Assembly (NCBI RefSeq): GCF_900188375.1
Contig: NZ_FZOO01000004.1
Coordinates: 1 to 64,000 of the forward strand
From: Geodermatophilus pulveris
GTDB lineage: Bacteria > Actinomycetota > Actinomycetes > Mycobacteriales > Geodermatophilaceae
Length of the DNA stretch: 64,000 nucleotides
Reading direction: 5' to 3'
In this document: positions 41,660-58,401 of the stretch, one piece after another
Layout: each line of letters begins with the position of its first letter
How positions within the stretch are numbered: the first letter of the stretch is position 1
Position numbers and translations under genes: made by a program
The notes under the pieces: generated by a model
What the model was told of the DNA's origin: nothing
The model's database searches: none
The model's input: the letters and a program-made list of their open reading frames with translations, nothing else

Positions 41660-43183
41660 ATGGCCCGGTCGACGGTCACCCCGGACGGCGGGCTGCGGAT
41701 GGGCACGCCCCAGGGCCGGTGGGTGCTGCTCGCGACGGTGCTCGGCTCCAGCCTGGCCATGCTCGACGCGACCGTGGTCAACGTGGCGCTGCAGCGGATC
41801 GGCACCGACCTCGACGCCGGCTTCTCCGGCCTGCAGTGGACCGTCAACGCCTACACCCTCACCCTCGCCTCGCTGATCCTCCTCGGCGGCTCGCTCGGCG
41901 ACCGCCTCGGCCGGCGGCGGGTGTTCCTCGTCGGCACCGTCTGGTTCGCCGCGGCGTCCCTGCTGTGCGGCCTGGCCCCCGACGTGGAGACCCTCGTGGT
42001 CGCCCGGGCGCTGCAGGGGGTCGGCGGGGCGCTGCTCACCCCGGGCAGCCTGGCCATCATCTCGGCGTCCTTCTCCGGGCCCGACCGGGCCGCCGCCGTG
42101 GGCGCGTGGTCGGGGCTGGGCGGGGTGGCCGGGGCGGTCGGGCCCTTCCTCGGCGGCTGGCTGGTGGGCATCGACTGGCGCCTGGTCTTCCTGCTCAACC
42201 TCCCGCTGGCCGCCGTCATCGTGGTCGTGACGCTGCGGCACGTGCCCGAGTCGCGCGACCCGCAGGCCGCTCACCACCTCGACCTGGCCGGGACGGCGCT
42301 CGTCGTCGCCGGCCTGGGCGCGCTCACCTACGGGCTGACCGCCGCCGGGGAGGGCGGCGCGAGCCCGGCGGTGTGGGCCTGGATCGCGGCCGGCCTGGTC
42401 GGGCTGGCCGCCTTCGCCGCCGTCCAGCGCCGCTCGCCGGCCCCGCTGGTGCCCCCGGCGCTGTTCGCCTCCCGGCAGTTCACCGCCGCCAACGCCGTCA
42501 CGCTGCTGGTGTACGCGCCGCTCGGCGTGGTGTTCGTGCTGCTCGTGCTGCACCTGCAGGTGGTCGCCGGCTTCGCGCCGCTGGCGGCGGGCACCGCCCT
42601 GCTGCCGGTGACCGCGCTGATGCTGCTGTTCTCCGCGCGCGCCGGCGCGCTGGCCCAGCGGATCGGCCCGCGCCCCCTGCTGACCGCCGGCCCGCTGGTG
42701 GCCGCGGGCGGGGTGCTGCTCATGGCCCGGATCGGCGAGGACGCCTCCTGGGTGGTCGACGTGCTGCCCGCGGCCGTCGCGTTCGGCGCCGGCCTCACGC
42801 TGCTGGTGGCGCCGCTGACCGCGACGGTGCTGGACTCCGCGCCCGACCGCTTCGCCGGCGTCGCCTCGGGGGTCAACAACGCCGTCGCCCGCGCCGCCGG
42901 GCTGCTCGCCGTCGCGGTGGTGCCGGTCGTCGCGGGGATCGGCGGCACCGACTACACCGACCCGGCGGTGTTCGGCGCCGGCTTCCGGACGGCGATGCTG
43001 GTCTGCGCCGGGCTGCTGGTCGCCGGCGCCCTGGTGGCCGCGCTGCTGGTCCGCCGTCCGCTGGGCCGGGCCGAGCCCGCGCCGCGGCGGCTGCCGATCG
43101 AGGAGTGCGCGCACTGCGGGGTCAGCGGGCCGCAGGTGCACCCCCGGGAGCCGGTGTCCGGGGCGGGGGAGGCGCGGCGGTGA
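41660..43183 (+). CDS. MFS exporter, DHA2 (EmrB/QacA) family
   Basis: 507 residues with about 14 membrane helices. DHA2 marks: LDATVVNVALQRIGTDL in helix 1, LGDRLGRRRVFLVGT in the loop 2-3, and VGGALLTPGSLAII in helix 4. It probably exports drugs or hydrophobic compounds by proton antiport. The cytoplasmic C-terminus has CAHC. ATG 41660 has GGAGG 5 nt upstream. Its stop overlaps the GTG of the NhaA fusion, implying co-translation. Confidence 0.9.
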   Translation: MARSTVTPDGGLRMGTPQGRWVLLATVLGSSLAMLDATVVNVALQRIGTDLDAGFSGLQWTVNAYTLTLASLILLGGSLGDRLGRRRVFLVGTVWFAAASLLCGLAPDVETLVVARALQGVGGALLTPGSLAIISASFSGPDRAAAVGAWSGLGGVAGAVGPFLGGWLVGIDWRLVFLLNLPLAAVIVVVTLRHVPESRDPQAAHHLDLAGTALVVAGLGALTYGLTAAGEGGASPAVWAWIAAGLVGLAAFAAVQRRSPAPLVPPALFASRQFTAANAVTLLVYAPLGVVFVLLVLHLQVVAGFAPLAAGTALLPVTALMLLFSARAGALAQRIGPRPLLTAGPLVAAGGVLLMARIGEDASWVVDVLPAAVAFGAGLTLLVAPLTATVLDSAPDRFAGVASGVNNAVARAAGLLAVAVVPVVAGIGGTDYTDPAVFGAGFRTAMLVCAGLLVAGALVAALLVRRPLGRAEPAPRRLPIEECAHCGVSGPQVHPREPVSGAGEARR

Positions 43184-45822
43184 CCGCCGCGCCGGCCCAG
43201 CAGTCCTCGCTCGGGGGCGGGCTGCTCGCGCGGGTGGCCCCGCTGCGCCGGCGGCTGCGCACCGAGGCGGGCAGTGCCGGCCTGCTGCTGTTGGCCACCG
43301 TGGTGGCGCTGGTGTGGGCCAACTCCCCGTTCGGCGACAGCTACGACACCTTCTGGCACACCGAGTTCGCCGTCCGGGTGGGCGGCGCCGAGCTGTCGCT
43401 GGACCTCCAGCACTGGGTCAACGACGGCCTGATGGTGTTCTTCTTCTTCGTCGTCGGGCTGGAGATCAAGCGCGAGCTGGTGATGGGCGAGCTCACCGAC
43501 CGGCGCCGGGCCGCGGTGCCCGCACTGGCCGCGGTCACCGGCCTGGTCGTGCCGGCGCTGGTCTACGTCGCGTTCACCCTGGGCGACGAGGCCGCCTCCG
43601 CCTGGGGCGTGGTGATCTCCACCGACACCGCGTTCCTGCTCGGGGTGCTCGCGCTGGTCGGGCCGTCCTGCCCCGGGCAGCTGCGGCTGTTCCTGCTCAC
43701 CCTGGCCATCGCCGACGACGTCGGCGCCCTCACCGTGATCGCGCTGTTCTACACCGAGGACCTCGCGCTCGGCCCGCTGGCCGCGGCCGTCGTCGGGCTG
43801 GCGCTCATGGTGGCTCTGCGCTACCTCAACGTGTGGCGCGGCCCCGGCTACCTGGTGCTCGGCACCGGGGTGTGGGTGGCCATGTACCTCTCCGGCGTGC
43901 ACCCCACCCTGGCCGGGGTGGTCATCGCGCTGTTCACCCCCGCCTACCCGGCCCGGCGGGCGGAGGTGGAGGACGCCGCCCGGCGCGCGCGGGCCTACCA
44001 GCAGTCGCCGAACCCGGAGTACGCCCGGGCGGCGCGGCTGTCGATCGACCGGTCGGTGTCGGCCAGCGAGCGGCTGCAGACGCTGTGGCAGCCGTGGACC
44101 AGCTTCCTCATCGTCCCGGTGTTCGCGCTGGCCAACGCCGGCGTCCCGCTGGACGCCGGGACGCTGCGCGCCGCGGCCACCTCGCCGGTCACCCTCGGCG
44201 TGGTCGCCGGCCTGGTGGCGGGCAAGCTGGCCGGCATCCTGGTGGGCACCGGGCTGGCCGTGCGGTTGCGGCTCGGCGAGCTCGCCCCCGGCCTCACCGG
44301 CCTGCAGCTGGCCGGCGGGGCCGCGCTGTCGGGCATCGGCTTCACCATCTCGCTGTTCATCGTCGACCTGGCCTTCGACGACGAGGTCCGGGCCGACCAG
44401 GCGCGGGTCGGCGTCCTGGCCGCGTCGCTGCTGGCCGCGCTGCTCGGCTGGGGGCTGTTCCGGCTGGCCGACCGGCGCCGTCCCGCCGGGGCCGGCACCC
44501 GGCCGGTGCTGCTCGACCCGCCGGTCGACGCCGCGCGCGACCACGTCCGCGGGCCGGCCGACGCGCCGCTGACCCTGGTCGAGTACGGCGACTTCGAGTG
44601 CCCGTTCTGCGGCCGGGCCACCGGCACCGTCGAGGAGCTGCGGGAGCGCTTCGGCGACCGGCTGCGCTACGTCTTCCGGCACGTGCCGCTGGTCGACGTC
44701 CACGCGCACGCCCAGCTGGCCGCCGAGGCCGCGGAGGCCGCGGCGGCCCAGGGCCGGTTCTGGGAGATGCACGACCGGCTGTTCGCCCACCAGGACCGGC
44801 TGACGGTGAGCGACCTGCTCGACCACGCCGCGGCGCTGGCCCTGGACGTGCAGCGCTTCGCCCGCGAGCTGGGGTCCGGCCGCCACGGCCGCCGGGTCGA
44901 GGAGGACGTCGAGTCCGCCGAGGCCAGCGGCGTCGAGGGCACGCCGACGTTCTTCGTCGGCGGACGGCGGCACACCGGCCCGCACGACACCGACAGCCTG
45001 GCCGCCGCGCTGCTCGCCGCCGCCGGGGAGGACGGCCTGCCGGTGGCCAGCGGGGCGACCCGGGCGGGCGGCGGGACACCCGGGCCGACGCTGCCGCTGA
45101 TCGGCCCGCGCCGCGGCGGGGACCGGGGCTCCGCGGTCGACGGGACGGCGACCGTGCCCGCCGACCTGCCCGAGACGCCGGACCGCGACGGCGCCTTCCC
45201 GCGGCTGACCGACGCCCAGCTCGCCCTGCTGCAGCGCTTCGGGGCCCGCCGGCGGGTCGAGCCCGGCGACACCCTGTTCCGCGAGGGCGACCCCGGCTAC
45301 GACTTCCAGGTGGTGCTGTCCGGGGCGGTGGCGGTCGTCGAGGACCTCGGCCGGGTGGGCCAGCGGGTGATCTCCGTGCACGGGGAGCGGCGCTTCCTCG
45401 GCGAGCTGGACCTGTTCGACCCCGCCCCGGTGTCGCTCACCGCGCTGGTCATCCGCCCCGGCGAGGTGGTGACCGTTCCCGACAGCCGGATGCGCGAGGT
45501 CTTCACCGCCGACCACGACCTCAAGGAGCTGGTGCTGCGCGCCTTCCTGGTCCGCCGCTCGCTGCTGCTGCAGCTCGCCGCGGACCTGCGGATCGTCGGC
45601 CGGGCCGGCTCACCGGACAGCGCCCGGCTGCAGGACCTGGCCCGCGGCCGGCGGCTCGACGCGGTCTTCGTCGACCTGGACGGCGACGACGACGGCGCCG
45701 CGCTGCTGGCCGACCTCGACGTGGTCGAGGCCGACCTGCCGGTCGTCGTCTGGCGCGGCGGGCGGGTGCTGCGCAACCCCACGGACGACGAGCTCATCGC
45801 CGCCGTGGAGTCCGGGGGCTGA
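43180..45822 (+). CDS. four-part fusion: NhaA Na+/H+ antiporter, DsbA-like domain, cNMP-binding domain, thioredoxin-like domain
   Basis: 880 residues. About 1-435 is a full NhaA antiporter (VNDGLMVFFFFVVGLEIKRE, LAIADDVGALTVIALFY and a final LFIVDLAFDDEV helix). About 445-640 is a DsbA/FrnE-like oxidoreductase with C474-P-F-C477 and cis-proline loop GTPTFF. About 675-790 is a CAP_ED domain (VEPGDTLFREGDPGYDFQVV, FLGELDLF). About 795-880 resembles the thioredoxin-like linker that precedes thioredoxin reductase in cNMP-TrxR proteins, but the TrxR part is absent. NhaA-DsbA fusions are known; the added C-terminal half is unusual. GTG 43180 overlaps the MFS stop. Confidence 0.9.
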   Translation: MTAAPAQQSSLGGGLLARVAPLRRRLRTEAGSAGLLLLATVVALVWANSPFGDSYDTFWHTEFAVRVGGAELSLDLQHWVNDGLMVFFFFVVGLEIKRELVMGELTDRRRAAVPALAAVTGLVVPALVYVAFTLGDEAASAWGVVISTDTAFLLGVLALVGPSCPGQLRLFLLTLAIADDVGALTVIALFYTEDLALGPLAAAVVGLALMVALRYLNVWRGPGYLVLGTGVWVAMYLSGVHPTLAGVVIALFTPAYPARRAEVEDAARRARAYQQSPNPEYARAARLSIDRSVSASERLQTLWQPWTSFLIVPVFALANAGVPLDAGTLRAAATSPVTLGVVAGLVAGKLAGILVGTGLAVRLRLGELAPGLTGLQLAGGAALSGIGFTISLFIVDLAFDDEVRADQARVGVLAASLLAALLGWGLFRLADRRRPAGAGTRPVLLDPPVDAARDHVRGPADAPLTLVEYGDFECPFCGRATGTVEELRERFGDRLRYVFRHVPLVDVHAHAQLAAEAAEAAAAQGRFWEMHDRLFAHQDRLTVSDLLDHAAALALDVQRFARELGSGRHGRRVEEDVESAEASGVEGTPTFFVGGRRHTGPHDTDSLAAALLAAAGEDGLPVASGATRAGGGTPGPTLPLIGPRRGGDRGSAVDGTATVPADLPETPDRDGAFPRLTDAQLALLQRFGARRRVEPGDTLFREGDPGYDFQVVLSGAVAVVEDLGRVGQRVISVHGERRFLGELDLFDPAPVSLTALVIRPGEVVTVPDSRMREVFTADHDLKELVLRAFLVRRSLLLQLAADLRIVGRAGSPDSARLQDLARGRRLDAVFVDLDGDDDGAALLADLDVVEADLPVVVWRGGRVLRNPTDDELIAAVESGG

Positions 45823-56979: not shown

Positions 56980-57168
56980 CAGCTCCTCGGGAACCGAGGG
57001 CCTCGGCACGGCCACCGCCGAACCGCCGAGGCCCCCCGGGGCCGACGCGGACCGGGGACCCACCGAACCTCTGGGGTGAGTCCTGCCTGCGCTGGGGGAG
57101 TGCAGGGAGGTAGGGCGCCGTCCGGCCCGAACCCGTCAGCTAACTCGGTAGGCGGTCACGAGGATGGG
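56980..57168 (+). promoter_or_regulatory. ydaO/yuaA-type c-di-AMP riboswitch (approximate bounds)
   Basis: The 5' leader of the M23 gene contains the conserved blocks CGGGGACCCACCGAACC, CTGGGGTGAGTCC, GGTAGGGCGCC, CCGAACCCGTCAGCTAAC and TCGGTAGGCGG in the order typical of ydaO-class aptamers, which in actinobacteria precede cell-wall hydrolase genes. Binding of c-di-AMP switches expression off. Limits are set by eye. The ribosome site GGGAGA of the next gene lies at the 3' edge, so the switch may hide it. Confidence 0.85.
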
Positions 57169-57180
57169 AGACCCGTCGCC

Positions 57181-58401
57181 TTGGCGACCCTGCACCGCCT
57201 GCACACCGTGGTCCGCTGCGCCACGTCACCCCGCAGCCCCCTGCGCGCGCCCCGCCGGGCCGCCGTCGTCGCCGCGGCGGTGGCCGGCCTCCTGGCCGCC
57301 ACCCCCGTCGTCGCCGGCGCCGCACCCGCCCCCGCCGAGGAGCAGGCCTCCCTCGAGGAGCAGGTCGCCGGGATCGAGGAGCAGGTCCGCGCCGCCGAGG
57401 AGCAGCTGCAGCGGATGACCGTGGAGGCCGAGGCCGCGGCCGACGCCGCCCTCGTCGCCCGCGCCCAGCTCGCCGCCGGCCAGACCGAGGCCGAGCGGAC
57501 GGCGGCGGAGCTCGCCGTCGCGCAGGCCGACGTCGCCGCCGCCGAGGCCGACATCGCCGACCTCGGCCGCGAGGCCTACATGGGGGCCGACGACCGCTAC
57601 GGCGACCTGGAGATGCTGCTGGACGCGGACAGCCCCACCGAGCTGCTCCAGCAGGCCGCCACCATGGAGGTCATCGGCGACCACCGCGCGGCGCGGCTGC
57701 AGGAGTTCCTCACCGTCGCGGCGCGGCTGGAGCAGGCCGACAAGGCCGCCCAGGCGGCCGTCGCCCGGCTCGACGAGCTGGCCCGCACCGCGGCGGAGGC
57801 CGAGCAGGCCGCCAACGCGCACCTCGCCCAGGCGCAGGCCGACTACGACGCCCGCGCGGCGGAGAAGGCCCGCCTGGAGGAGGAGTTGCGCCGGGCCGGC
57901 GAGCGGCTGCTGGCGGCGCAGGGCGCCGCCGACGCCGCGGCCGCCTGGGGCGCCCGCCAGGCGCAGCAGCAGCAGACCCTCGCCGTGGCGTCCGGCTCCT
58001 CCGCCGGCATGCCGACGGCCGGCCGGGTGACCTCCTGCTACGGCCCCCGCTGGGGCACCATGCACCAGGGCATCGACATCGCCGCCCCGATCGGCACGCC
58101 CATCTACGTGCCCGAGGGCGGCGTGGTGCTGCAGGCCGGCCCGGCCAGCGGTTTCGGCCAGGCGGTCTACGTCCGGCACGGTGACGGCCAGATCACCCTC
58201 TACGGGCACGTCGACCAGTTCTTCGTCAGCGCCGGGCAGGTCGTCTCCGCCGGCGAGCACATCGCCGACGTGGGCAACAAGGGCCAGTCCACCGGCCCGC
58301 ACCTGCACTTCGAGGTGCACCGGGGCGGCCTCTACGCCAGCCGGGTGGACCCGATGCCGTGGCTGCAGGCGCACGGCATCTCCCTCGGCGGGGCCTGCTG
58401 A
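57181..58401 (+). CDS. secreted M23 (LytM/NlpD-like) peptidase with coiled coil
   Basis: 406 residues from TTG 57181. A signal peptide (RRAAVVAAAVAGLLAATPVV, cut near GAAPA) is followed by a long alanine/glutamate-rich coiled coil (about 55-260) and a C-terminal M23 domain: H295-Q-G-I-D299 and H374-L-H376-F zinc/catalytic residues. It should cleave peptidoglycan cross-bridges or activate an amidase, as EnvC-like proteins do. The start is uncertain: TTG 57181 (GGGAG site) or GTG 57208; an ATG at 57076 lies inside the riboswitch and is rejected. Confidence 0.88.
   Translation: MATLHRLHTVVRCATSPRSPLRAPRRAAVVAAAVAGLLAATPVVAGAAPAPAEEQASLEEQVAGIEEQVRAAEEQLQRMTVEAEAAADAALVARAQLAAGQTEAERTAAELAVAQADVAAAEADIADLGREAYMGADDRYGDLEMLLDADSPTELLQQAATMEVIGDHRAARLQEFLTVAARLEQADKAAQAAVARLDELARTAAEAEQAANAHLAQAQADYDARAAEKARLEEELRRAGERLLAAQGAADAAAAWGARQAQQQQTLAVASGSSAGMPTAGRVTSCYGPRWGTMHQGIDIAAPIGTPIYVPEGGVVLQAGPASGFGQAVYVRHGDGQITLYGHVDQFFVSAGQVVSAGEHIADVGNKGQSTGPHLHFEVHRGGLYASRVDPMPWLQAHGISLGGAC

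Follow-up and report, generated by a model that had tools for sequence, protein, structure and literature searches.

We identified one real protein of four parts, namely an NhaA-type Na+/H+ antiporter, a DsbA-like domain, a cNMP-binding-type (CNB) domain and a small glutaredoxin-fold domain (MrxL), in a 64,000-nucleotide stretch of DNA from Geodermatophilus pulveris (hereafter, the window). The architecture is confirmed by its open reading frame, domain matches and structural model, and the fusion is conserved in one bacterial family. We give about an even chance to the explanation that it is an NhaA antiporter whose tail lies in the cytosol, serves redox and stress signalling and sets antiport during stress.

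The fusion gene is a frame of 880 codons without an internal stop (43180–45822, + strand), and its GTG start overlaps the stop of the upstream MFS gene by 4 bases (Table 1). Pfam matches are to Na_H_antiport_1 at residues 25–425 (5.6e-136), Thioredoxin_4/DSBA at residues 453–611 (2.1e-23/7.9e-16) and cNMP_binding at residues 691–776 (5.9e-13); no Pfam model matches the final ~85–100 residues at E ≤ 1. In a full-length AlphaFold2 model built from 44 rows (mean pLDDT 86.9, pTM 0.66), the helices of NhaA are followed by a thioredoxin fold, a linker modelled with low confidence (residues 618–654), the CNB beta roll with subsequent helices and a small last domain of the order beta-alpha-beta-alpha-beta-beta-alpha. 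An earlier reading, made from the sequence only, had proposed this order of four domains in one continuous frame with the reductase part absent, and had left the domain borders to structure prediction; the frame, the Pfam matches and the model agree with it. The protein stops after MrxL, with no FAD reductase domain by frame or Pfam, and is not itself a CNB-type FAD reductase. Rfam gave no match at the fusion gene, PADLOC found 0 families, and a promoter and terminator scan found 0 sites, a result that means little for a genome of this kind.

Table 1. Positions in the window of the fusion gene, its parts and the upstream neighbour
Feature	Position	Strand	Basis
Fusion gene, 880 aa, GTG start, TGA stop	43180..45822	+	Open frame read and Pfam
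NhaA Na+/H+ antiporter domain, residues 25–425	43252..44454	+	Pfam, AF2 model, Foldseek
DsbA-like thioredoxin-fold domain, residues 453–611	44536..45012	+	Pfam, PDB relatives, AF2, Foldseek
CPFC active-site motif, residues 474–477	44599..44610	+	Alignment
Linker, predicted disordered, residues 618–654	45031..45141	+	pLDDT <50 and dN/dS
CNB (cNMP-binding-type) domain, residues 656–797, V751 at canonical phosphate Arg	45145..45570	+	Pfam, alignment, model
MrxL, mycoredoxin/glutaredoxin-fold domain, SPDS for CxxC, residues 800–880	45577..45819	+	Fold model, alignment
DHA2-type MFS gene, upstream neighbour of the fusion	41660..43183	+	TIGR00711, gene order

Full-length matches were found in 24 of 60 relatives (21 of the 25 other members of the genus, plus three further members of the family), each a single open frame when read out, and the genomes with a full-length fusion include the one-contig assemblies G013, G023 and G024. 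The genus thus has the full-length fusion in 22 of 26 genomes. Across the family, the match is full-length in 54 of 112 genomes by a hand count of rows that start at residue 1–20 and end at 870 or beyond, a count that includes G096 (internal stop) and leaves out G077 (residues 133–874). These matches fall in 5 of the 12 genera of the family, and the named fused loci comprise 11 from Geodermatophilus (Geodermatophilaceae) and one from Modestobacter. In the class sample, G296 is the sole genome with the fusion among 393 others; this is a lower bound, as two first-look candidates were scored per genome in the class search (eight in the family search) and fused copies could escape. Within the family of G296, 5 of 22 genomes match at 1e-180 and one has the tail; among other f27 genomes, three of five match and none reaches the tail. 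NhaA–DsbA matches that end at residue 611–677 are present in 81 of 394 class genomes (hand count), and no CNB domain was found in the unfused loci of the 28 of these 81 genomes for which loci were scanned.

Judged by their conserved residues, the NhaA and DsbA-like domains both appear functional. The NhaA part scores 453.8 bits against PF06965 (cut-off 23.5) and 329.2 bits against TIGR00773 (cut-off 254), and falls below the NhaA subfamily models PRK09560 and PRK09561, which have higher cut-offs. NhaA is defined by an Asp pair and a Lys of the ion site and by a TD pair. When site residues are placed by alignment to 1zcd, T148, D149, D179, D180 and K349, which we take to be the ion-site residues T132, D133, D163, D164 and K300 of E. 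coli NhaA, are invariant across all 44 rows, and H241 is kept in 41 of 44. The DsbA-like part scores 83.8 bits against PF13462 (cut-off 23.2), and its PDB relatives include Corynebacterium diphtheriae DsbA/TsdA and BdbD. Both cysteines of the CPFC motif (C474 and C477) are present in all 44 rows, as is P589, presumably the cis-Pro position. Classic DsbA is extracytoplasmic. Both termini of E. coli NhaA are in the cytosol, and the whole tail should therefore be cytosolic; the complete NhaA fold of the model (AF2 and Foldseek) likewise implies a cytosolic C terminus.

We propose that the protein acts as an NhaA-family membrane Na+/H+ antiporter with a C-terminal tail that would lie in the cytosol, as expected from NhaA topology. 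The dithiol of the DsbA-like domain would be switched by cytosolic redox partners. CNB–MrxL, behind its flexible linker, may be a protein-docking or autoinhibitory unit, and is probably neither a classic cAMP sensor nor a thiol catalyst. Together, the parts of the tail would set antiport activity in redox, desiccation or salt stress.

The gene neighbourhood supplies candidate partners. The MFS gene of the window is of DHA2 type (TIGR00711, 239.9 bits versus 230.2), and an MFS gene lies directly upstream of the fusion in 21 of 22 genus loci; in the window, the two are likely to share a transcript. A gene for a REC–MrxL–FAD reductase (~560 aa) lies directly downstream of the fusion in 8 of the 22 fused genus loci, followed in 8 of 8 (within 20 kb) by a CNB–histidine kinase, which gives the operon order MFS, fusion, REC–MrxL–FAD reductase, CNB–histidine kinase, with 4-base overlaps at the three junctions in each of the 8 operons (script gene calls). 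No reductase gene was found within 1.2–1.5 kb downstream in the other 14 genus loci, including the window. The window genome has the pair on another contig, where a REC–MrxL–FAD reductase (C16:402204-403871, 74%) adjoins a CNB–histidine kinase (C16:400789-402195, 73%), and it encodes a second MrxL–FAD reductase without a Pfam receiver match (C16:472876-474525); separate reductases without the CNB half, which the sequence-only reading had suggested looking for, are thus present. Four clade B loci (L125, L126, L127 and L130, 20 kb) showed no redox-signalling operon, and none of the scanned neighbours of L125 and L126 is a redox-signalling gene. These four loci and the 14 genus loci count against the explanation that we favour. 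Overall, the neighbours connect the module with stress functions, but not in the case of every fusion. In a more specific explanation, which we consider rather unlikely, the antiporter would carry a CNB-type gating tail in analogy to SLC9C1 and SOS1 together with the DsbA-like switch, and would physically join the REC–MrxL–FAD reductase and the CNB–histidine kinase; Na+/H+ exchange would then be gated by a phosphorelay or by a redox signal.

Selection on the five parts was estimated by simple Nei–Gojobori counts for 8 pairs chosen by us among 25 sequences, some with few changes. Values of dN/dS were 0.08–0.27 for NhaA, 0.12–0.34 for DsbA, 0.06–0.44 for CNB and 0.15–0.62 for MrxL; the linker (621–655) is mostly fast-evolving (0.09–1.19). 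In the 8 pairs tested, the tail evolves under purifying selection. These values also bear on the idea that the main role of NhaA is to anchor a DsbA-like oxidoreductase in the membrane, with a tail that recruits redox partners and with transport incidental. Such an anchor would fit the invariant CPFC and P589 (44 of 44 rows) and the wide occurrence of tail-less NhaA–DsbA proteins in the class (81 of 394 genomes), but the five ion-site residues are equally invariant and the other domains are under roughly the same constraint as NhaA, which has the lowest dN/dS of the five parts in 2 of the 8 pairs. We regard it as unlikely.

The CNB domain scores 49 bits against the cNMP-binding profile (cut-off 27.5), and the beta-roll strands are present in the model. 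Its best PDB sequence matches are CRP-type regulators, proteins that bind cAMP and hold its phosphate with an Arg. V751 aligns with this residue, and Arg is absent from the aligned position in all 25 fused rows (A1) and in all 30 fused and reductase-linked rows (A2). Because the CNB domain lacks the Arg for the cAMP phosphate, control by a classic cyclic nucleotide is unlikely. A bacterial equivalent of SLC9C1, with a CNB domain that gates NhaA by binding cAMP or cGMP, is therefore distinctly improbable, even though the domain exceeds the Pfam cut-off, resembles CRP-type regulators, largely keeps the GE pair in the fused rows of A1 (Gly in 25 of 25, Glu in 23 of 25), and has a precedent in SLC9C1 (PMC6052114). 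In addition to the missing Arg, Gly replaces this Glu in 6 of 30 rows, and the Arg residues found near by (one residue earlier in 5 of 30 rows, two residues later in 6 of 30, neither in the window) could make another contact or reflect an alignment shift.

The MrxL domain is modelled with a pLDDT of 88.5, and glutaredoxins lead its Foldseek matches (TMq up to 0.76 among the 50 matches listed). Its profile has Mycoredoxin-1 (Mrx1, Rv3198.1, 2lqo) as best PDB sequence match (E 4.7e-6). Where Mrx1 has CxxC, the window protein has SPDS, and Cys is present at either position in 0 of 33 rows; as this mycoredoxin-like domain lacks CxxC, thiol chemistry or thiol sensing in MrxL is unlikely. Of the combined cyclic-nucleotide and thiol regulation suggested by the sequence-only reading, the cyclic-nucleotide part is weakened and thiol sensing by MrxL is unlikely; the CPFC of the DsbA-like domain is intact.

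The same CNB–MrxL module is found in FAD reductases. The MrxL segment matches the stretch that links CNB to the reductase in CNB–FAD reductases, and CNB–MrxL is 40–47% identical to ten reductase-type rows (frames of 431–693 aa); in the five of these ten that were scanned (L076, L080, L081, L105 and L109), the remainder is a FAD/NAD(P)H reductase, kin to thioredoxin reductase. Homology bears out the proposed relationship between the tail and the N-terminal half of a CNB–thioredoxin reductase, with the difference that CNB–MrxL precedes the FAD reductase in the CNB thioredoxin-disulfide reductases and FAD-dependent oxidoreductases and follows NhaA–DsbA in the fusion. A module profile matched 68 of 396 genomes sampled across the phylum, and 30 of the loci were fetched (L148 is the window itself; weaker rows and second copies lie outside this survey). 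Outside the fusion, CNB is followed by a FAD reductase in 25 of 25 loci (L149–L173), with MrxL scored between them in 23 (all except L169 and L171) and broken frames in three (L161, L162 and L166); L174–L176 have CNB only and L177 has MrxL–reductase only. Among the loci examined, the NhaA fusion is the only place in which CNB–MrxL occurs without a reductase. Tail matches were also found in 53 plasmid records, the best being 45–49% identical to CNB–MrxL; the 20 matches listed of these 53 are reductases, have a zinc-finger neighbour or have no listed feature, and none shows an antiporter.

In aligned rows of CNB-type FAD reductases, the phosphate Arg and the CxxC of MrxL are absent as they are from the fusion, so their absence is a trait of the module and not decay after fusion. 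The reductase halves were also read for CxxC, and none was found in 27 CNB-linked frames, 9 REC-linked frames and one other (L177), nor in those of L105, L106, L108 and L163; L107 was left out because its frame leaves the reductase. The partner-type reductases lack CxxC as well, which counts against the explanation that we favour and makes electron transfer from them to the DsbA-like domain only hypothetical.

The sequence-only reading had also considered a relic fusion that lost its reductase, that is, a decayed CNB–reductase fused by accident as a functionless tail. The missing CxxC in MrxL and phosphate Arg in CNB would suit a relic, but both are just as absent from the reductase-linked rows, full-length matches extend over 5 of 12 genera and the tail is not a relic because it is under purifying selection; this explanation is very improbable. 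A misassembly or frameshift that joined two genes at 45100–45200, an artefact that the same reading had named, is rejected and practically excluded by single open frames in the 24 further genomes, three of them one-contig assemblies.

In a tree of NhaA–DsbA (70 rows, 33 fused), the fused state changes three times. Constraining clades A and B to a single clade was not rejected (p-AU 0.146); constraining clades A and B together with L046 was (p-AU 3.9e-9). The CNB–MrxL tree with L109 requires two changes for the fused rows, with weak placement, and without L109 the 33 fused rows group against 11 reductase-type rows (83/83, not starred). One old fusion with losses and an exchange of tails would both fit these trees. 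Two genomes, G017 and G010 (L142 and L143), have the order MFS, REC reductase, CNB–histidine kinase without a fusion gene, in surroundings that match those of the fused genomes G001 and G009. This is apparently a clean loss, and it seems that the fusion gene can be shed, because both genomes keep its operon neighbours; that they do so without it counts against the explanation that we favour. G113 carries two fused copies (G113:C40 and G113:C44; L084 and L085), one like each clade, which share 71% and 53% identity with the window protein.

NhaA is the model antiporter and is known for its part in controlling pH. Should its transport be controlled by the tail, the fusion would be a form of NhaA under redox or signal control, would make the CNB–MrxL of little-studied reductases testable outside the enzyme and would be an independent case of a Na+/H+ exchanger with a CNB-type tail. 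The actinobacterial NhaA–DsbA proteins share the NhaA part and the DsbA-like part (L044, at 70% identity, is the closest relative without the fusion that was seen) and are without the CNB–MrxL tail in the 28 genomes scanned of the 81 unfused ones of the class. With the full model as query, Foldseek ranks SLC9C1 and then SOS1 next after NhaA, but whole-chain superposition on either is poor (TM ~0.3, rmsd >23 Å), a further point against the explanation that we favour. To our knowledge, neither has a DsbA-like or MrxL domain. SLC9C1 and plant SOS1 are, like the fusion, Na+/H+ exchangers with a C-terminal CNB domain (PMC6052114, PMC3548769); SLC9C1, a sperm exchanger of the SLC9 family, contains a voltage sensor and is cAMP-responsive (PMC6052114), and the membrane part of SOS1 is NhaP (PMC3548769), whereas that of the fusion is NhaA. 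The parts are known, and in the literature searched, which comprised few subscription papers and some sources in partial text (including PMC7793082), neither a CNB-tailed NhaA nor the four-part arrangement was found described. The sequence-only reading would have been refuted by an architecture both common and already described; the fusion is common within one family and is undescribed in that literature.

Several further features of these loci were observed. In the window genome (C16), a thioredoxin-family gene (L139:9995-10360, - strand) lies upstream of the REC–MrxL–FAD reductase and CNB–histidine kinase; its product (122 aa, PF00085 39 bits) has, by eye, ASGSS in place of WCGPC, and has relatives in L140 and L141. 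In G018 (L145:927-9979), a CNB–FAD reductase gene stands at the end of a chaperone operon in the order Hsp70, GrpE, DnaJ, MerR-type regulator, ClpB, zinc-ribbon thioredoxin, zf-UBP and CNB–FAD reductase, and G020 (L144) has the last part of this order. An AhpC/TSA peroxiredoxin gene (L123:8895-9473, + strand) lies tail to tail with the fusion gene (L123:9499-12117, - strand) in G031. The MFS protein of the window ends in a short CxxC tail (43100–43183), EECAHCGVSGPQVHP, as does that of L113, EECPHCGVTGPQLHP. Elsewhere in the window, a c-di-AMP riboswitch (RF00379, 57006–57169, + strand, 55.2 bits versus 38) overlaps the start of a peptidase M23 frame (57076–58401).
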